Both the position numbers and the translations under genes were made by a program. The notes below the pieces were generated by a model, which did no database searches, was not told the origin of the DNA, and worked only from the letters and a program-made list of their open reading frames with translations. From Pseudomonadota bacterium (GTDB lineage: Bacteria > Pseudomonadota > Alphaproteobacteria > Acetobacterales > Acetobacteraceae): DNA of 52,884 nucleotides. Location of the stretch: NCBI GenBank assembly GCA_018240405.1, contig JAFEFW010000005.1, positions 1 to 52,884 on the forward strand, given 5' to 3'. Below, in pieces: positions 7,052-33,883 of the stretch (position 1 is the first letter of the stretch; every line of letters starts with the position of its first letter).

Positions 7052-8584
<1,533 letters not shown>

Positions 8585-8593
8585 GGTCGCCCA

Positions 8594-10943
<2,350 letters not shown>

Positions 10944-10961
10944 GACCAGGGAGCGGGGTAG

Positions 10962-11366
10962 ATGCCGATTTCCCTGGAGATCGTCAGTCCGGAAAGGCTG
11001 CTGCTGTCCCGTCCCGTGGACATGGTGGTCATCCCGGCCAGCGAAGGCGACATGGGTGTGCTGGAAGGCCACACGCCCATGATCGTCATGCTGCGTGGCG
11101 GCACGATCGATCTGTATGAAGGCGACCGTGTCACCGACCGGTTGTTCGTCAATGGCGGTTTTGCCGAGGTGACGCCGGAGCGCTGCACGGTGCTGGCCAA
11201 TGAGGCTGTGCCCCTGGCGGAGTTGAACCGCACGGACGCAGAGCGGCAACTGGCGGAAGCCGAGTCGGCCTACGCCGACGCTGCGAAGCTGGATACTGCT
11301 GCGGAGGATGCGGCGCTCGACGCGGTCCAGGCAGCCCGGGCGCGGGTGGAGGCGACGGCGGCATAG
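10962..11366 (+). CDS. atpC: F1 ATP synthase subunit epsilon
   Basis: The 134-residue protein has the N-terminal beta-sandwich domain (LEIVSPERLLLS, GDMGVLEGHTPMI, FVNGGFAEV) followed by an Ala-rich helical C-terminal part. Epsilon sits on the shaft and can inhibit ATP hydrolysis through its C-terminal helices. It is the last gene of the operon and is followed by an intrinsic terminator 34 bases after the stop. Confidence 0.96.
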   Translation: MPISLEIVSPERLLLSRPVDMVVIPASEGDMGVLEGHTPMIVMLRGGTIDLYEGDRVTDRLFVNGGFAEVTPERCTVLANEAVPLAELNRTDAERQLAEAESAYADAAKLDTAAEDAALDAVQAARARVEATAA

Positions 11367-26434: not shown

Positions 26435-26695
26435 ATGATCACTGCCGGCCAGATGCGCGCCGCGCGGGCGCTGCTCGGCCTGGACCAGCGCTCGCTGGCG
26501 GAATTGTCGGGCCTGTCGCTGCCAACCATCCAGCGGATGGAGGCAAGTGGCGGCGTGGTGCGTGGCAACGTCGATTCGCTGATGAAGCTGGTTGGCGCCC
26601 TGAACGCCGCCGGCATCGAACTGATCGCGGAAGGCGCGGTCAGCGCCGCAGGCGGCCGCGGCGTGCGCCTGACCGCACCACCGGGGGACGCATGA
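26435..26695 (+). CDS. XRE-family helix-turn-helix regulator
   Basis: The 86-residue protein is a single HTH domain: QMRAARALLGLDQRSLAELS followed by GLSLPTIQRMEASGG, the recognition-helix region, ending in a short tail. Small XRE proteins of this type bind palindromes as dimers. Its stop overlaps the hyfB start (ATGA), so it is translated together with the hyf-like operon and probably regulates it. The palindromes at 26321-26364 are the obvious candidate target. Confidence 0.85.
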   Translation: MITAGQMRAARALLGLDQRSLAELSGLSLPTIQRMEASGGVVRGNVDSLMKLVGALNAAGIELIAEGAVSAAGGRGVRLTAPPGDA

Positions 26696-28695
26696 TCGGC
26701 CAGCTTGCCGCTGTTGTCCCGGCCTTCATCGTGCTGGGGGTCGTTGGCATCGTCACCGCGCGAGTCCAGGCCGGGCGGGTATTAGTCTACGGCGGCAGCC
26801 TTGTGCTGTGCGCTGTACTGCTGGGCGGCGGCCTCGCCGCGCTGACGGGCGACATCCAGCGCATCGTCCTGCCGATCGGCATTCCATGGGTCGGCGGCCA
26901 TCTGCGCCTGGACGCGCTATCCGGCTTTTTTCTGGCATTGATTGGTCTGGGCGGCGGCGGCGCCAGCCTGTTCGCCCTCGGCTACGGCCAGTCCGAACAC
27001 CATCCGGGGCGGGTGCTGCCGTTCTTTCCTGCCTTCCTGGCGGGCATGACACTGGTGATCCTGGCGGATGATGCGTTCCTGTTCCTGTTCGGCTGGGAAC
27101 TGATGTCGCTGTCCTCCTGGGCGTTGGTCATGGCGCACCAGGATGAGGCGACCGCGCCGTCCGCGCCGCAGCCAGGCTACGTCTATCTGCTCATGGCGAC
27201 ATTCAGCGGCCTGACGCTGCTGCTCGCCTTCGGCCTGCTGGCCGGGGCCGGTGGCGGCCTGGCCTTCGACAATATGCGCCTGCACGCCGCCGGACCGGGC
27301 GTCACTGCCGGCGCCTTTGTGCTGGCGCTGATTGGCGCCGGGTCGAAGGCCGGTCTCGTTCCCCTGCATGTCTGGCTGCCGCTCGCGCATCCGGCGGCGC
27401 CGAGCCACGTGTCGGCATTGATGAGCGGGGTCATGACGAAGGTGGCGGTATACGGGTTCGTCCGCATTGTGTTCGACCTGCTGGCGCCGCAGCCCTGGTG
27501 GACGGCGACGCTGGTGCTGGTGGCTGGCGGCATCACCGCCGTGCTGGGTGTCCTGCAGGCGGTGCTGGAGCGGGACCTGAAGCGGTTGCTGGCCTACTCC
27601 ACGGTCGAGAATATCGGCATCATCTTCGTCGGTCTCGGCATGGCTCTTGCGTTCCGGCTGAACGGTTTCGCCGCCGGCGCGGCGCTGGCGATCACGGCCG
27701 CATTGTTCCACGCCTTCAACCACACGCTGTTCAAGAGCCTGCTGTTCTTCGGCGCCGGTGCGGTGCTGAACGCAACCGGACGGCGTGACATGGAGACGAT
27801 GGGCGGCCTGATCCATCGCATGCCCGTCACCGCCTTCTTCTTCCTTGCCGGCTGCATGGCGGTGTCGGCGCTGCCGCCGCTGAACGGGTTCGCGTCGGAA
27901 TGGCTGACCTTCCAGGCGGTGCTGTTGCGCCCGCAACTACCGCAATGGGGCCTGAAGCTGATGTTCCCGGTGGACGGCGCGCTGCTGGCACTCGCCGCCG
28001 CATTGGCCGCGGCCTGCTTCGTCCGCGCCTATGGCGCCGCGTTCCTCGGCCGCCCGCGCACCCCGGCGGCGGAGCAGGCGACGGAGGTCGATCACTGGTC
28101 GCTGACAGCGATGGGCGGCTTCGCGCTGCTGTGCCTGCTGGCCGGCATCTTCCCCGGCGCGGTGATCGATGCTCTGGCGCCAGTTTCGCAGGCGATGACC
28201 GGTGCTCGCATGCCGGTGCAACTGGCCGACCCGTGGCTGACAATTGCGCCGATTGCGGCCTCCCGCAGCTCCTATAACGGCCTGCTGGTGTTCAGTTTCA
28301 TTGCCGTCTCCATGCTGCTGACCATTGCCGCGGTTCATCGTGTGTCGCGCGGCATCCGGCGTAGCCCGCCCTGGGATTGCGGCTTCCCACAGGCCGCACC
28401 CGACACGCAGTATTCCGCTACCAGCTTCCAGCAGCCGATCCGCCGCGTGTTCGGTGTGATCTTTCGCGTCCGCGACAGCGTGGACATGCCGGCGCCGGGT
28501 GAACGGCGCGCCGCCTCCATCACCCAGCGCCGCTGGGACCCGATCTGGGATCCGCTTTACGCGCCGATCGCCGGCCTGGTGAGCTGGATCGCCGAGCGGA
28601 TGAACGTCCTGCAGTTCCTGACCATCCGCAGCTATCTGAGCTTTGTGTTCGGCGCCCTGGTGGTGCTGCTGCTGACACTGGCGTTGTGGCAATGA
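26692..28695 (+). CDS. hyfB: HyfB-like antiporter-type subunit (NuoL/Mrp family)
   Basis: The 667-residue membrane protein is close to the length of E. coli HyfB. It has about 16 hydrophobic helices and the proton-antiporter core: FGWELMSLSSW (helix-5 glutamate), GSKAGLVPLHVWLPLAHPAA (lysine and HP pair), LLAYSTVENIG and FNHTLFKSLLF. These residues form the ion channel in complex I and group 4 hydrogenase arms. It overlaps the regulator upstream and hyfC downstream by ATGA. It is expected to move protons or sodium across the inner membrane as part of the five-subunit complex. Confidence 0.9.
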   Translation: MIGQLAAVVPAFIVLGVVGIVTARVQAGRVLVYGGSLVLCAVLLGGGLAALTGDIQRIVLPIGIPWVGGHLRLDALSGFFLALIGLGGGGASLFALGYGQSEHHPGRVLPFFPAFLAGMTLVILADDAFLFLFGWELMSLSSWALVMAHQDEATAPSAPQPGYVYLLMATFSGLTLLLAFGLLAGAGGGLAFDNMRLHAAGPGVTAGAFVLALIGAGSKAGLVPLHVWLPLAHPAAPSHVSALMSGVMTKVAVYGFVRIVFDLLAPQPWWTATLVLVAGGITAVLGVLQAVLERDLKRLLAYSTVENIGIIFVGLGMALAFRLNGFAAGAALAITAALFHAFNHTLFKSLLFFGAGAVLNATGRRDMETMGGLIHRMPVTAFFFLAGCMAVSALPPLNGFASEWLTFQAVLLRPQLPQWGLKLMFPVDGALLALAAALAAACFVRAYGAAFLGRPRTPAAEQATEVDHWSLTAMGGFALLCLLAGIFPGAVIDALAPVSQAMTGARMPVQLADPWLTIAPIAASRSSYNGLLVFSFIAVSMLLTIAAVHRVSRGIRRSPPWDCGFPQAAPDTQYSATSFQQPIRRVFGVIFRVRDSVDMPAPGERRAASITQRRWDPIWDPLYAPIAGLVSWIAERMNVLQFLTIRSYLSFVFGALVVLLLTLALWQ

Positions 28696-29666
28696 AAGGC
28701 GCCGACGTCCTGGCCATGCTGCACGCGCTGCTTGCGCAGGGCGTGCAGATGACTGTCATCCTGCTGCTCGCCCCGCTGCTCACCGGCTACGTCCGCAAGG
28801 TGAAGGCGCGGCTGCAGCGCCGGCGCGGGCCGGATCTGGTTCAGCCCTACCGCGACCTGCGCCGCCTGCTGGGAAAGGAGGCCGTGATCGCCGACAACGC
28901 CTCCTGGCTGTTTCGCGTCGCGCCGTATTTCGTCTTTGCCGCCACCTGGGTGGCCGCGGCGCTGATCCCGACCTTCGCCGCCAACCTGATGTTCTCCTGG
29001 TCGGGCGACCTGATCGCCATCACCGCGCTGCTGGGCAGCGCCCGCTTTGCGCTGGCGCTGGCGGGGATGGATATCGGCACGGCCTTCGGCGGCATCGGCG
29101 CCTCGCGGGAGGTGATGATCGCCTCGATTGCCGAACCAGCGATGCTGATGATCGTGTTCTCGGTCGCGCTGATCGCCGGGTCGACGCAATTATCGACCGT
29201 CGCTGAATACATGCTGAGCGGCGCCGCCGGCATCCGCGTCTCACTGGCCATGGCTCTGATCGCGCTGCTGGTGGTTGCGATCGCCGAGAACGGCCGCGTG
29301 CCGGTGGACAACCCCGCAACGCACCTGGAACTGACCATGGTGCATGAGGCGATGGTGCTGGAATACTCCGGCCGGCATCTGGCGATGATCGAGTGGGCGG
29401 CTTCGTTGAAGCTGATGCTCTACATCTCGATGATCGCCTGCATTTTCATCCCCATTGGCCTGGCCGGCGATACCAACAGCCCACTTGGCAATGCGGTCGG
29501 CGTCACCTCCTGGATTGCCAAGATGGCGGTGCTGGGCGCGGCGCTTGGGGTAGCCGAAACCGCCGTGGCAAAGATGCGCGTCTTCCGCGTGCCCAACTAC
29601 CTCGGCGCCGCCCTCATGCTCGGCCTGCTGGGCGTGCTGCTGCTGTTCGTATCTCAGGGAATGTAG
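28692..29666 (+). CDS. hyfC: HyfC-like subunit (NuoH family)
   Basis: The 324-residue membrane protein corresponds to HyfC/NuoH, which joins the membrane arm to the soluble module. The block AENGRVPVDNPATHLELTMV and MVHEAMVLEYSG carries the acidic residues of the quinone- or proton-path region. The N-terminal RRRGPDLVQPYRDLRRLL is the conserved RGP segment following helix 1. The ATG at 28692 overlaps the hyfB stop; an in-frame ATG two codons earlier is less likely. About eight hydrophobic helices are visible. Confidence 0.9.
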   Translation: MKGADVLAMLHALLAQGVQMTVILLLAPLLTGYVRKVKARLQRRRGPDLVQPYRDLRRLLGKEAVIADNASWLFRVAPYFVFAATWVAAALIPTFAANLMFSWSGDLIAITALLGSARFALALAGMDIGTAFGGIGASREVMIASIAEPAMLMIVFSVALIAGSTQLSTVAEYMLSGAAGIRVSLAMALIALLVVAIAENGRVPVDNPATHLELTMVHEAMVLEYSGRHLAMIEWAASLKLMLYISMIACIFIPIGLAGDTNSPLGNAVGVTSWIAKMAVLGAALGVAETAVAKMRVFRVPNYLGAALMLGLLGVLLLFVSQGM

Positions 29667-29680
29667 GAGGGGATGTAGCC

Positions 29681-30346
29681 ATGAGCCACGGCCTCTCCTT
29701 CGACATCGCCCATATGCTGGCCGGCGGGCTGGTGCTGGTCAGCTTCCTGATGCTGTACCAGGACCGTTTGCTGGCGCTGCTGCACGTGCTGTCGCTGCAT
29801 GCCGTGGTGCTGGCGCTGTCGGTCGCCTGGCAGGCCTGGATTCAGGATGCACCGCACCTGTTCATCACCGCCGCCCTGGCGCTAGGCTTCAAGGCCATCC
29901 TGATCCCGATGGTCCTGCGCCGCATGGTGTTCCAGATGGGGATCCATCGCGAAATCGAGACCGTCGGCGGCATTGGCCTGACCATGCTCGCCGGGATCGC
30001 GCTGGTGGCGCTGTCGCTGGAGGTCATGCTGCCCGTCACCTCCGACGTTGACCCGGTGGCACGCGAGGACATCGCGCTGGCGCTGTCGGTCGTCATGATC
30101 GGCATGCTGATGATGGTGACGCGGCGCAACGCGCTGAGCCAGGTGGTCGGGTTCATGTCGCTGGAGAACGGCATCATCCTCGCCGCCACCGGCGCCCGCG
30201 GCATGCCGCTGGTGGTGGAGATCAGCGTCGCGTTCTCCATCCTGATCGCGCTGATCGTCATCGGCGTCTTCCTGTTCCGCATCCGCGAGCAGTTCGACAC
30301 GATCGACGTCGAGGCGCTGGACCGTTCGCGCGGAGGCCAGGAATGA
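29681..30346 (+). CDS. hyfE: HyfE-like subunit (NuoK-related)
   Basis: The 221-residue membrane protein matches HyfE in length and position. It has about seven hydrophobic segments, and its C-terminal half contains the NuoK-like segment FMSLENGIILAATGARGMPLVVEI with an intramembrane glutamate, as in the membrane arm of complex I. GGAGGGGATG lies before the start. It ends in an ATGA overlap with hyfF. No individual activity is expected outside the complex. Confidence 0.88.
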   Translation: MSHGLSFDIAHMLAGGLVLVSFLMLYQDRLLALLHVLSLHAVVLALSVAWQAWIQDAPHLFITAALALGFKAILIPMVLRRMVFQMGIHREIETVGGIGLTMLAGIALVALSLEVMLPVTSDVDPVAREDIALALSVVMIGMLMMVTRRNALSQVVGFMSLENGIILAATGARGMPLVVEISVAFSILIALIVIGVFLFRIREQFDTIDVEALDRSRGGQE

Positions 30347-31782
30347 GCATCGATCCGGTCTCGGCGATCCTGCTCATCCCGCTGGTGTCGGCAGCGTTGC
30401 TGGCGTTGTTGCCGGGCTATCGCGTCGGCGCCGCGCTAAACGTTGTGGCGTCGGCGCTGTCGCTGGGCGTCGCCGTCTCGCTGCTATGGCACCGCCCGGC
30501 GGTCGGGCTGTACCTGATGGTCGACGATCTCAGTATCGTGTTTGTCGTGCTGAACTGCTTCGTCGGCTTTACCACCAGCGTGTTCAGCGCGTCCTATATC
30601 GGCCACGAACTGGATAGCGGCAAGCTGAAGCCGCAACTGGTCCGATTCTACCACGCTATGTACCAGTTGATGATGTTCGGCATGAACCTGGCACTGCTGG
30701 CCAACAATATTGGCCTGATGTGGGTGGCGGTGGAACTGGCGACGCTGACCACGGTGCTGATGGTCGGCCTGTACCGCACCGCCGAGGCGCTGGAAGCGGC
30801 GTGGAAATACTTCATCCTTGGCAGTGTCGGCATCGCATTGGCGCTGTTTGGCACCATCCTCGTCTACCTCGCCGCGCGGCCGGTGGCGGGTGAGGGGATG
30901 GAGGCGATGGTCTGGACGCATCTGCTGCGGCTGGCGCCGTCCTTCGATCCGTCGTTGCTGAACATCGCCTTCATCTTCCTGCTGCTGGGCTACGGCACCA
31001 AGGTCGGGCTGGCGCCGCTGCACGCCTGGCTGCCGGACGCGCACGCCGAAGGTCCGACGCCGATCTCCGCCGTCTTGTCCGGCCTGCTGCTGAATGTGGC
31101 GCTGTATGCGCTGCTACGTTTCAAGGTGCTGCTGGCGGCTAACCCCGGCGCGATCGCGCCGAACCCGCTGATGATTGGGATGGGGCTGCTGTCGGTGCTG
31201 TTCGCCGCGTTCATGCTCTACCGGCGGCGGGACATCAAACGCCTGTTTGCCTACTCGTCGATCGAGCACATGGGAATCATCGTGTTCGCCTTCGGCATGG
31301 CAGGGCCGCTCGGCAACTTCGCCGGGTTGCTGCAGATGACAATGCACAGCCTGACCAAGTCGGCGATCTTCTTCTCGGTCGGCCACGTCGCGCAGGTGAA
31401 GGGCACGCAGCGTATTGCGGACATGGGCGGCCTGACCGAGAGCCACCCGGTGCTCGGCTGGACCTTGGTCGCCGGCGTCGCCGCGATCGTCGGGCTGCCG
31501 CCGTTCGGCGTCTTTACCAGCGAGTTCCTGGTGATCTCCTCCAGCTTCAGCCAGCAGCCGCTGCTGGCGCTGGTGCTGGTCTTCGGCCTGCTGGTGGCGT
31601 TCGGCGCGTTGCTGCTGCGCATGACTGGTCTGGCCTTTGGTCCCGTGCGCGGGCCGGTCGGCCGGGTGCGGGCCTCCTACCTGCCGATCTTCGCCCATCT
31701 GGCGTTGGTGTTGGTAGCCGGATTCTGGCTGCCGCCGCCCTTGGTGAAATGGTTCGAACACGTGGCGACGTTGCTGGGATGA
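30343..31782 (+). CDS. hyfF: HyfF-like antiporter-type subunit (NuoN/NuoM family)
   Basis: The 479-residue protein is the second antiporter-like subunit. It keeps the ion-path residues WVAVELATLTTVLMV (glutamate), GYGTKVGLAPLHAWLPDAHA (lysine and HA loop), LFAYSSIEHMG and MHSLTKSAIFF. About 13-14 helices are predicted. With HyfB it makes the complex a two-antiporter machine. The stop overlaps the hyfG start (ATGA), so translation is coupled. Confidence 0.9.
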   Translation: MSIDPVSAILLIPLVSAALLALLPGYRVGAALNVVASALSLGVAVSLLWHRPAVGLYLMVDDLSIVFVVLNCFVGFTTSVFSASYIGHELDSGKLKPQLVRFYHAMYQLMMFGMNLALLANNIGLMWVAVELATLTTVLMVGLYRTAEALEAAWKYFILGSVGIALALFGTILVYLAARPVAGEGMEAMVWTHLLRLAPSFDPSLLNIAFIFLLLGYGTKVGLAPLHAWLPDAHAEGPTPISAVLSGLLLNVALYALLRFKVLLAANPGAIAPNPLMIGMGLLSVLFAAFMLYRRRDIKRLFAYSSIEHMGIIVFAFGMAGPLGNFAGLLQMTMHSLTKSAIFFSVGHVAQVKGTQRIADMGGLTESHPVLGWTLVAGVAAIVGLPPFGVFTSEFLVISSSFSQQPLLALVLVFGLLVAFGALLLRMTGLAFGPVRGPVGRVRASYLPIFAHLALVLVAGFWLPPPLVKWFEHVATLLG

Positions 31783-33257
31783 GCGCGCTCTCTGGCCTGC
31801 TGGACGCCGGTTCGGTGGTCGCGGCACACCACCCCTGGCCGCGCGCGGTCATTGACCCGCCGGTCTGGCAGGTGGCGACGCAACTGGTGGCAAGCGGCGG
31901 GCTGACTCTGCTGTCGCTCTGGGGCGAGCCAGGCGTGGTGCACATGGCGCTATACGATCCGGTCGAGCGTGAGGCCGGCGTGCTGAGCCTTGGGTGTCCC
32001 GAAGGCCGCTATCCATCGGTTGGCGCGCAGCATCCGCCGGCGGTCCGACTGGAGCGGTCGCTGTACGATCTGTTTGGGCTGGAGCCGGTTGGGCTGGCCG
32101 ACCGCCGCCCCTGGCTGGACCACGGCCGCTGGGGCGATGAGGCGCGGCCGGCCGATTCATATCCTTTCCTGCCGGCACGCGGCGAGGCCCTGCACCAGAT
32201 TCCCGTCGGGCCGGTACACGCCGGCATCATCGAGCCGGGGCATTTCCGCTTCACCTGCGACGGTGAGACGGTGGTGCGGTTGGAGGAGCGCCTGGGCTAC
32301 GTCCACAAGGGCGTTGACCTCCTGATGGCCGGAGCGTCGCTGGAACGGGCGGCGAAGCTGGCCAGCCGCGTGTCGGGCGACAGCACCGTCGCTTATGCGC
32401 TGGCCTTCGCTCGTGCCGTGGAGGCGGCGACCGGCACGGAGCCACCGGCGCGGGCGGTGGCGCTGCGCGCGGTGATGGCGGAGCTTGAACGCATCGCCAA
32501 TCACATCGGCGACTTCGGCGCCATCTGCAACGATGCCTCGTTCAGTATCATGCTCGCCCATTGTGCTGTGCTACGGGAGAAGGTGTTGCGAGCCGCCGCC
32601 GCCGGCTTCGGGCACCGAATGATGATGGATCGGATCGTTCCGGGCGGCGTGGCCGTTGACCCGGACGTGTCCGCGCTATCCGCCGTCCGCGCGGCCGTCG
32701 CCGAAGTTGCCGCCGTATTGCCGCCGCTGGTGCGGCTCTATGACAATACGACCTCGTTGCAGGATCGCACGGTCAGCACCGGCATCCTGAAGCCTGCGCT
32801 GGCCCGCCAGTTCGGGGCCGGCGGTTATATCGGTAGAGCCTCGGGGCGGGATTTCGATGCGCGGCGCGACGTCCCGTATCCGCCTTACGACGCGCTGACC
32901 TTCGAGATACCGGTGCTGGTACAAGGCGACGTGAATGCGCGTGTGTGGATTCGACTTCGTGAGGTGGATCAAAGCCTGAAGCTGCTGGTCTGGCTGCTGG
33001 ACACGCTGCCGGACGGTCCGGTGCTGGCGCATTTGGCGGGCGACAGCGGCGAAGGGGTGGCGATGGCCGAGGCGTTCCGCGGTGACGTCCTGGTCTGGCT
33101 GCGGGTGGGCGGTGGCCGCGTCGAGCGCTGCCATCTGCGCGACGCGTCCTGGTTCCAGTGGCCGCTGCTGGAGGCTGCGATCGAGGGCAACATCGTTGCC
33201 GACTTCCCTCTGTGCAACAAGAGCTTCAACTGCTCGTACTCGGGGCACGATCTGTAG
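31779..33257 (+). CDS. hyfG: HyfG-like large subunit lacking Ni-binding cysteines (Ehr type)
   Basis: The 492-residue protein fuses a NuoC-like N-terminal domain (ERSLYDLFGLEP at about residues 95-106) to a NuoD/hydrogenase-large-subunit domain beginning with PVGPVHAGIIEPGHFRF. The first metal motif of [NiFe] enzymes, R-x-C-G-x-C, reads RVSGDS here with Ser199 and Ser202. The C-terminal DPCxxC is replaced by FPLCNKSFNC (Cys479, Cys485). Hydrogenase activity is therefore not expected; this is the pattern of energy-converting hydrogenase-related (Ehr) proteins. The start is the ATGA overlap at 31779. No small NuoB/HyfI-like subunit follows. Confidence 0.9.
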   Translation: MSALSGLLDAGSVVAAHHPWPRAVIDPPVWQVATQLVASGGLTLLSLWGEPGVVHMALYDPVEREAGVLSLGCPEGRYPSVGAQHPPAVRLERSLYDLFGLEPVGLADRRPWLDHGRWGDEARPADSYPFLPARGEALHQIPVGPVHAGIIEPGHFRFTCDGETVVRLEERLGYVHKGVDLLMAGASLERAAKLASRVSGDSTVAYALAFARAVEAATGTEPPARAVALRAVMAELERIANHIGDFGAICNDASFSIMLAHCAVLREKVLRAAAAGFGHRMMMDRIVPGGVAVDPDVSALSAVRAAVAEVAAVLPPLVRLYDNTTSLQDRTVSTGILKPALARQFGAGGYIGRASGRDFDARRDVPYPPYDALTFEIPVLVQGDVNARVWIRLREVDQSLKLLVWLLDTLPDGPVLAHLAGDSGEGVAMAEAFRGDVLVWLRVGGGRVERCHLRDASWFQWPLLEAAIEGNIVADFPLCNKSFNCSYSGHDL

Positions 33258-33308
33258 GGTGATCCATCCTCACCCGGTTTGGCTGCCGGACCGCGTTGAG
33301 TTTACGAA

Positions 33309-33330
33309 TTGTTAACAGTTTTGCGATATC
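33309..33330 (+). promoter_or_regulatory. Promoter-like box shared with the MCP-PilZ gene
   Basis: TTGTTAAC, one base, GTTT, one base, GC, two bases, TATC. The same pattern with 18 of 22 identical bases lies at 44660-44681. Here it is 56 bases before the ATG at 33386. Either a promoter or an activator site fits. Confidence 0.45.
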
Positions 33331-33385
33331 TGCTGGCTGTTGTTCAGGGCGGTACCGCAACGCGCGGCAGGCGGAGGACAGACCG

Positions 33386-33883
33386 ATGTCGGGACTCACC
33401 ATCAATCCTGTTGGGCTACATGGCACCCAGAGGCTCAGTGCCCCGGAGCCTGCCTCGCCCACTGTCACAACATCCGCCGCGCCGTCTATCGCTTCGCCAG
33501 CAACGACGAATGACCCAGCGAGCCCGGCGCAGCCATTGAGCCGGGAACTCCAGGCCGCGATGCTGCAATGGCAGAGCAGCGGCGCCAGCCCGGCGCAGGC
33601 GCCGCGTAGTATCCGGACACCCCCGCCCAGCGGATTCGACAGTACTGGCGGCGAAACGGCGACTCCCGCCGATACCGGGCGCGGCAAACCGTCCGGACCG
33701 GCACTGTTCCTTGACGCGGGAACGCCGGCGCCCCCGGCGGACGCGGACCTCGCCTCGTCGCAGCAATCGGTCGAGGCGTCGGACGGTACAACTTGGACCG
33801 ATTCGTCGACCTATCCGGCGGCGCTGCTGGCCTACGCGCATAGCCCGCCGCCCCGCGCGGTCATGCTGCAGAAACAGGCATAG
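33386..33883 (+). CDS. Hypothetical Pro/Ala/Ser-rich protein
   Basis: A 165-residue protein I do not recognise. It is rich in Pro, Ala, Ser and Thr and looks largely disordered, apart from the short helix SRELQAAMLQWQSSG near residue 54. There is no signal peptide. GGCGGAGGA lies 8 bases before the ATG at 33386. The gene occupies the place where a hyf small-subunit gene would be expected, but shows none of its cysteines. A promoter-like box shared with a chemotaxis receptor gene lies upstream, which hints at a motility link. Confidence 0.6.
   Translation: MSGLTINPVGLHGTQRLSAPEPASPTVTTSAAPSIASPATTNDPASPAQPLSRELQAAMLQWQSSGASPAQAPRSIRTPPPSGFDSTGGETATPADTGRGKPSGPALFLDAGTPAPPADADLASSQQSVEASDGTTWTDSSTYPAALLAYAHSPPPRAVMLQKQA

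Follow-up and report, generated by a model that had tools for sequence, protein, structure and literature searches.

The Hyq 'endo-hydrogenase' of Azorhizobium caulinodans is encoded by the operon hyqRBCEFGI (PMC2650096, PMC2930871, PMC3357923; here and below, these papers are cited from the portions of their text that were available). In 2012, HyqG proteins of eight genera were reported to be devoid of both CxxC motifs and to keep three cysteines, at positions 258, 491 and 497 (PMC3357923). Among the papers listed in a literature search, no others on Hyq were found. The wider Ehr class, of unknown function, is defined by the missing ligands of the nickel-iron (NiFe) centre (PMC6349859, PMC10284858, PMC7894505, also from the available portions). 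The family has been described since 2009, and its job is still disputed. The operon analyzed here lies within 52,884 nucleotides of DNA from a bacterium of the Acetobacteraceae (assembly GCA_018240405.1, contig JAFEFW010000005.1, positions 1 to 52,884), called the window in the following. Because of its named relatives and of the gene order R-B-C-E-F-G, it is classified, from sequence comparison, as an operon of the Hyq type, within the Ehr class.

The product of the operon is probably a Hyq/Ehr-type complex in which the NiFe site was lost and which acts as a redox-driven ion pump; a probability of about 60% is given to this reading, in which substrate, partner and direction are conjectural. 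An earlier note on this DNA had described a hydrogenase-4-like operon, with a large subunit unable to hold a NiFe centre. The observation is real and was correctly read, and its interpretation is partly supported. The core of the finding has been in print since 2012, as PMC3357923, in the text available, reports HyqG without CxxC motifs. The note had overlooked the regulator gene, the missing hyfI and, in the accessible literature, both the published Hyq identity and the deletion phenotypes in hydrogen turnover. New in this work are the coupled regulator gene, a feature of Hyq operons too, the relocation of hyfI, the phylogeny, and the surveys of Hyp and nif genes.

The operon and its large subunit

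The features of the operon are the following.

26435..26695, plus strand: hyqR-like helix-turn-helix (HTH) regulator gene, 86 codons; Pfam HTH_3; ATGA overlap with hyfB
26692..28695, plus strand: hyfB/hyqB, antiporter-like subunit; NF005086 hydrogenase 4 subunit B, 823 bits (cut-off 667)
28686..29666, plus strand: hyfC/hyqC, NuoH-like membrane anchor; Pfam NADHdh, 138.7 bits (cut-off 27)
29681..30346, plus strand: hyfE/hyqE, NuoK-like membrane subunit; PRK11492 at 7.6e-22, below cut-off; Oxidored_q2 also below cut-off
30343..31782, plus strand: hyfF/hyqF, second antiporter-like subunit; NF005043 hydrogenase 4 subunit F, 837 bits (cut-off 533)
31779..33257, plus strand: hyfG/hyqG, fused NuoC/NuoD-like large subunit of 492 residues; Pfam Complex1_49kDa, 133 bits (cut-off 24)
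32367..32384, plus strand: RVSGDS, residues 197-202 of HyfG, with Ser199 and Ser202 at the first cysteine pair
33213..33254, plus strand: CNKSFNCSYSGHDL, residues 479-492, the C-terminus of HyfG, with Ser486 and Gly489 at the second cysteine pair

In the list of open reading frames (ORFs), the five genes hyfB-C-E-F-G are all open, in order and tightly packed between 26692 and 33257, and profile matches agree with the identities proposed before; for HyfE, the nearest NCBIfam model is the hydrogenase 4 membrane subunit, with a score under the model cut-off. Four-base ATGA stop/start overlaps join regulator and hyfB, hyfE and hyfF, hyfF and hyfG; hyfB and hyfC also overlap (an alternative hyfC start is possible at the ATG in 28692), and 14 bases separate hyfC from hyfE. 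The ATG overlapping the hyfF stop was taken as the start of hyfG, which gives the 492 residues. By comparison with E. coli hyf, the operon contains no HyfA, HyfD or HyfH gene, and the ORF list shows no NuoE/F/G/I genes (the NADH input module) within it.

In an alignment of HyfG to E. coli HycE and HyfG, Ser199, Ser202, Ser486 and Gly489 stand at the positions of the four NiFe cysteines, so that all four ligands are missing, as the earlier note had concluded. The motif RVSGDS was located where it had been described. The motif CNKSFNC, which had been read as standing in place of DPCxxC, is found at residues 479-485, just before the old DPCxxC site and overlapping it, but its Cys485 aligns with the preceding proline, and the former cysteines are replaced by Ser486 and Gly489.

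The same positions were analyzed in 100 sequences at least 59% identical to the window protein, itself included. No cysteine occurs at any ligand position in 98 of them: positions 202, 486 and 489 are never cysteine, and position 199 is cysteine in two sequences (L055, L097). Since the replacement is common to 98/100 sequences, the alignment identifies the loss of the four cysteines as a genuine family trait, neither chance, nor sequencing error, nor lesion. The ratio of nonsynonymous to synonymous substitutions (dN/dS), calculated for a single pair of species (dS close to 1), is 0.23 for hyfG and 0.08 for the small-subunit gene hyfI; by this measure, both genes are under purifying selection between the two species.

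Other residues are conserved in this set. C479 and C485 are cysteine in all 100 sequences and C250 in 98; their number and the six-residue spacing of C479/C485 are those of HyqG, where the corresponding residues are Cys491/Cys497 in the available description. Neither C479 nor C485 is found in seven reference sequences bearing CxxC motifs. C250 occurs in E. coli HycE and HyfG also, and is therefore not an invention of Hyq. Among 76 more distant sequences (45-59% identity), the three cysteines are all kept in 33 and all lost in 8, S199 is kept in 74 and D201 in 75. Because S199 and D201 persist where the cysteine trio often does not, D201 is a better functional candidate than the three cysteines. 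Overall, of the near-invariant residues of Hyq HyfG, 40 also occur in every one of the seven CxxC references, and 29 occur in no reference, including S199, D201, N251, D252, C479, N484, C485 and G489.

The best solved relative of HyfG is the large subunit of E. coli formate hydrogenlyase (7z0s_E, 1e-54). Group 4 NiFe hydrogenases (E. coli HycE and HyfG; 7z0s) share with the window the EPGHFR stretch, the 40 residues mentioned above and HyfBCEF-type membrane genes, but they have the NiFe cysteines and the HyfA, HyfD and HyfH components. The E. coli large subunits also carry a C-terminal extension, missing in the window HyfG and in two further sequences, L249 and L261. The missing extension was considered as proof against NiFe maturation and dropped, as L249 and L261, which bear CxxC motifs, end at the same place.

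The membrane subunits were aligned to NuoL, NuoM and NuoN and to E. coli HyfB and HycC. HyfB keeps E136, K219, K250 and E403; HyfF has E131, K220, N251 and E394, the asparagine at the further lysine position being the same as in E. coli HyfF. Both proteins have the glutamate of transmembrane helix (TM) 5, the lysine of TM7 and the glutamate of TM12, which we take to be the key charged residues of antiporter-like subunits. The two antiporter-like subunits are intact in this respect, as had been proposed. HyfC keeps E150, D208, E215 and E226, and has alanine at the position of NuoH E216. With a group 4-like large subunit devoid of NiFe ligands, a complex I/group 4-like make-up and Mrp-like antiporter subunits, the operon fits the Ehr group, to which the earlier note had also likened it.

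Relatives, phylogeny and displaced genes

The window protein is 62-65% identical to its Hyq relatives in Rhizobium johnstonii 3841 and Rhodopseudomonas. The link to Hyq runs via the plasmid copy of strain 3841 (L114), A. caulinodans being compared by its description in the portions of the papers available. Strain 3841 is presumably the Rhizobium leguminosarum of the legend to the published HyqG alignment. The named loci used in this work are the best 80 of 581 matches; judged by record title, they all belong to Pseudomonadota, except for one Terriglobia metagenome-assembled genome (L125). In public plasmid records HyqG is called 'NADH-quinone oxidoreductase subunit C' or, in two of those listed, 'hydrogenase expression protein HypE'.

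A tree of 85 large subunits, made with a quick maximum-likelihood method, was rooted on seven NuoD sequences; it contains several long branches, and its support values are those of the Shimodaira-Hasegawa-like approximate likelihood ratio test (SH-aLRT) only. The window falls in a clade of 67 rows (SH-aLRT 100), which includes every Hyq-labelled sequence (44 rows), among them R. johnstonii 3841 and Rhodopseudomonas (L111, L135), and 23 unlabelled rows, mostly derived paralogues of the family. This clade also encloses a sister type found in the family, and the window belongs to no smaller well-supported subset. Ehr is a broad class, within which the operon is placed in the Hyq clade.

The seven NuoD sequences are set apart from all others (SH-aLRT 100), and Hyq lies within the group 4 radiation, not with NuoD. 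The phylogeny suggested in the earlier note gave a divided answer: it recovers a supported Hyq clade, derived paralogues included, without the cysteine pairs, but this clade lies within group 4, beside a sequence bearing CxxC motifs. The latter, L249 (G113:C107:30109-31437), has RICGVC, NKSFELCYSCTDR and a Hyq-like NKSF motif, and is closer to Hyq than any other cysteine-bearing sequence of the set; no HypD match was found in its genome (G113, 88% complete). L249, Hyq and a four-row group join at a fork with support 99, where the tree gives no firm sequence of branching for L249 and the L255-L259 group relative to Hyq. The seven CxxC-bearing sequences do not form one group. Since L249 joins Hyq, the tree suggests, within the limits set by its root and long branches, that Hyq lost the metal site after splitting from NiFe-type ancestors. 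Respiratory complex I (NuoB/C/D/H/L/M/K) shares a homologous core with the operon; it differs in its NuoE/F/G/I genes, in the separate position of NuoD and in the quinone residues discussed below.

The regulator gene is found, 73-82% identical and directly upstream of hyfB, in L114 (R. johnstonii 3841 pRL11, where it is annotated as an HTH regulator), L091 (Caldovatus), L082 and L117; in L141 no match to it was found. In Azorhizobium the operon continues with hyqI, whereas in the window the I gene is encoded elsewhere: hyfI is not in the operon, and no HyfI match was found in the whole window. The gene was found on another contig of the same genome (G000), at positions 910-1410 of C599, between an acyl-CoA dehydrogenase-like gene and two PpiC/SurA-like genes (neighbours named by eye), and the gene order around it is the same in G099, which represents the second species of this genus in the sample. 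Its product has the four cluster cysteines intact in the alignment, and groups, though with only moderate support (SH-aLRT 90), with the HyfI proteins belonging to the clade of the window.

Relatives usually have the gene behind hyfG. Downstream of hyfG, hyfI is present in 76 of the 80 named loci, in 73 of them within about 140 bases and farther away in L086, L104 and L153; three other loci end at a contig edge, and L141 has no hyfI in 4 kb. Of 83 loci in the family sample described below, 78 have hyfI within 1.5 kb of hyfG, two are too short, and in three (window, G099, G059) it was not found within this distance, nor was it in L181 and L183 of the class sample. In G059 (C5, C14), the HyfI match is on another contig than the rest. 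A further Hyq-type operon is split in G011, with hyfF on C2 (G011:C2:265327-266742) and hyfGI on C1 (L074). In the window, an open frame (33296-33883) occupies the expected place of hyfI, between hyfG and priA, and has no Pfam or NCBIfam match and no HyfI match.

A further difference from Hyq of Azorhizobium is that no NifA or sigma-54 site was found just upstream of the operon: between 22977 and 26435, there is no match to TGT-N10-ACA and, with one mismatch allowed, none to the -24/-12 element. In the whole window the two patterns occur 8 and 9 times, counts reached by 23 and 12 of 100 shuffles, and not clearly above them; NifA/sigma-54 control was rejected for this locus. It was not taken as defining Hyq, as it has been shown for Azorhizobium only, in the text available.

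Genes of the F1 ATP synthase (alpha, gamma, beta and epsilon, by Pfam) are located at 7052-11363 of the window, about 15 kb upstream of the operon, and homologues of them are found near the Hyq-type operon of G067.

Hyp maturation and nif genes

The presence of Hyp maturation genes and of nif genes was surveyed in two samples. The class sample comprises 290 genomes with completeness of at least 95%, 24 of them Hyq carriers (26 hits minus the distant G040 and G122). The family sample comprises 150 genomes, with 24 carriers of the window's type (including the basal G093) and 55 of the sister type (E <=1e-100), split by hand. In both, absence of HypD or nifD means not among the matches listed; G098 was scored HypD-positive from a contig-edge fragment.

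Among the class carriers, HypD was found in 10/24 and not found in 14/24. In the family, nine of the 24 carriers of the window's type have no HypD match (completeness 88-100%, at least 97% for six of them), and HypD was found in 8/55 of the sister type; the HypD search was positive in 4 of 14 control genomes. No HypF over cut-off was obtained in any of the 23 HypD-less Hyq genomes, two of which gave no match and the rest short fragments only; among the controls for HypF, the cut-off was reached by G000 and G184, and the HypD-positive G179 gave a partial match below it. All 23 have no cysteine at the four ligand positions. A good share of the relatives apparently live in bacteria unable to make a NiFe centre, to judge from their gene content, which strengthens the statement that the large subunit has no NiFe ligands. 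One such carrier is the isolate Caldovatus sediminis (G127), with no HypD match, no nifH over cut-off and no full HypF.

In the same class carriers, nifD was over cut-off in 7/24, all of them HypD-positive, and not in 17/24. The published claim that hyq is absent from non-diazotrophs in general, as worded in the accessible text, fails in this wider sample.

In the window's own genome, nifH and nifD are over cut-off on C615, and C606 carries two further NifH-like matches, possibly BchL/BchX; this suggests that the organism is a phototroph of the Acetobacteraceae able to fix nitrogen. In this genome, the searches for PF00346 and PF01058 listed just two Ehr-like large subunits, two HyfI-like proteins and a small subunit beside a separate NiFe-type hydrogenase on C50. 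They listed no further NuoD or NuoB, other nuo genes not having been searched for; the genome may be without complex I, or the genes may lie in assembly gaps. The second Ehr-like cluster (C543, L067:3088-9452, minus strand) has HyfG-, HyfI-, HyfC- and HyfB-like genes; its HyfG-like protein is 39-40% identical to the window's and the HyfI-like one about 60%, with A, S, S and G at the NiFe positions.

Possible function of the complex

By homology, the product would be a six-subunit complex I-like oxidoreductase, with HyqB, HyqC, HyqE and HyqF in the membrane, and HyqG and the displaced HyqI facing the cytoplasm. The single 4Fe-4S cluster of HyqI would relay electrons towards, or away from, an organic substrate, possibly a quinone, in the remodelled pocket of HyqG (S199-G-D201-S202 and N480-K-S-F-N484-C485). 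A soluble carrier of low potential, for instance ferredoxin, may dock directly on HyqGI, since an input module of the NuoI/EFG type is missing from the operon. The redox reaction would be coupled, in one direction or the other, to ion movement through HyqB and HyqF. A pump with an organic substrate and a docking carrier is favoured because there is no input module, and no recurring partner gene nearby. When flanking ORFs were clustered (35% identity over 60% length), the only families present in at least 6 of the 80 named loci were the HTH regulator (9) and a methyltransferase-like gene (6), and no electron-partner gene beside the operon recurred to that extent. As the clustering was strict, with the regulator under-counted, and as many loci have short flanks, partner genes could be missed. 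None of the analyses pointed to the different redox partner or substrate assumed in the earlier note.

Several observations speak against such a pump. The quinone residues of NuoD, which we take to be the second histidine of HPSAHG and a tyrosine, are not conserved in HyfG, where Gly200 aligns with the tyrosine, so that quinone as substrate is a guess. The displaced HyfI is a putative partner of the HyfG complex, predicted from homology. The window's own genome has HypD, HypF and the C50 hydrogenase, and for this reason the case against NiFe assembly rests on the relatives. In the class sample, Hyq and HypD are positively associated (10/24 vs 11/266, p 4e-7, kinship uncorrected). Finally, PMC3357923 and PMC2930871 report that without hyqR to hyqI more H2 is released at 20 uM O2 and less below 1 uM O2, and that H2 evolution is still considerable in a nifK hup mutant in which hyq is retained; recycling of H2 is said to go on when hup/hyp are lost. 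These phenotypes are not simply explained by a pump without H2 chemistry.

They could be secondary if the complex ran in reverse, an ion gradient and quinol pushing electrons to ferredoxin or flavodoxin for reductases such as nitrogenase. Among the alternatives this one is given the highest probability, though still a low one. Azorhizobium hyq is under NifA control and its deletion slows diazotrophic growth (PMC2650096, available text), Hyq is enriched with nifD (7/24 vs 6/266, p 1e-5, kinship uncorrected), and the window genome has nif genes of its own. On the other hand, most Hyq-type genomes of the class have no nifD, no NifA or sigma-54 site precedes the operon, and nodules of a hup mutant keeping hyq are reported, in the available part of PMC2930871, to evolve almost no H2, for which an altered nitrogenase allocation alone is no explanation.

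Somewhat less probable still is an H2:quinone oxidoreductase with a non-canonical metal site, built from the Hyq-specific cysteines C479 and C485 together with C250. The near-complete conservation of the three residues in the closer set would agree with it, as would the O2-dependent shifts of H2 release in both directions and the recycling said to persist without hup/hyp (PMC2930871, PMC3357923), also claimed, as data not presented, for Rhodocista centenaria, naturally devoid of hup/hyp. However, according to the accessible text no cell-free H2 assay was at hand (PMC3357923), the hyq deletion takes out the regulator too, and the published table has no nifK hyq double mutant. Moreover, C250 is shared with E. 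coli, the cysteine trio is often lost at 45-59% identity, where S199 and D201 remain, and 17/24 class carriers have no nifD.

A bolder form of hydrogen chemistry, in which Hyq would be a fourth kind of hydrogenase, an aerobic ion-pumping H2:quinone oxidoreductase with neither NiFe ligands nor Hyp, and with a site made of C479/C485 and D201/N484, is compatible with both the published mutant phenotypes and the Hyq genomes without HypD/HypF, but it is judged quite unlikely. An ordinary group 4 NiFe hydrogenase, with cysteines mis-sequenced or lost in one decaying copy, could draw on the HypD, HypF and C50 hydrogenase of the window genome, but is refuted by the same replacement in 98/100 sequences from many assemblies, and by intact frames with dN/dS well below 1.

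The preferred reading of a redox-driven pump leaves a question that reaches beyond this locus. Hyq has been published as a reversible respiratory hydrogenase (in the portions available), yet its large subunit has no NiFe ligands: either the published role in H2 metabolism is indirect, or H2 chemistry takes place without any known hydrogenase metal site. Should the Azorhizobium results be correct and the action of Hyq direct, this would be hydrogen chemistry that needs no NiFe site. The surveys name organisms able to settle the question, such as the Hyp-less carrier Caldovatus sediminis, and the answer is relevant to the exchange of a metal site for something else in complex I and group 4 hydrogenases.

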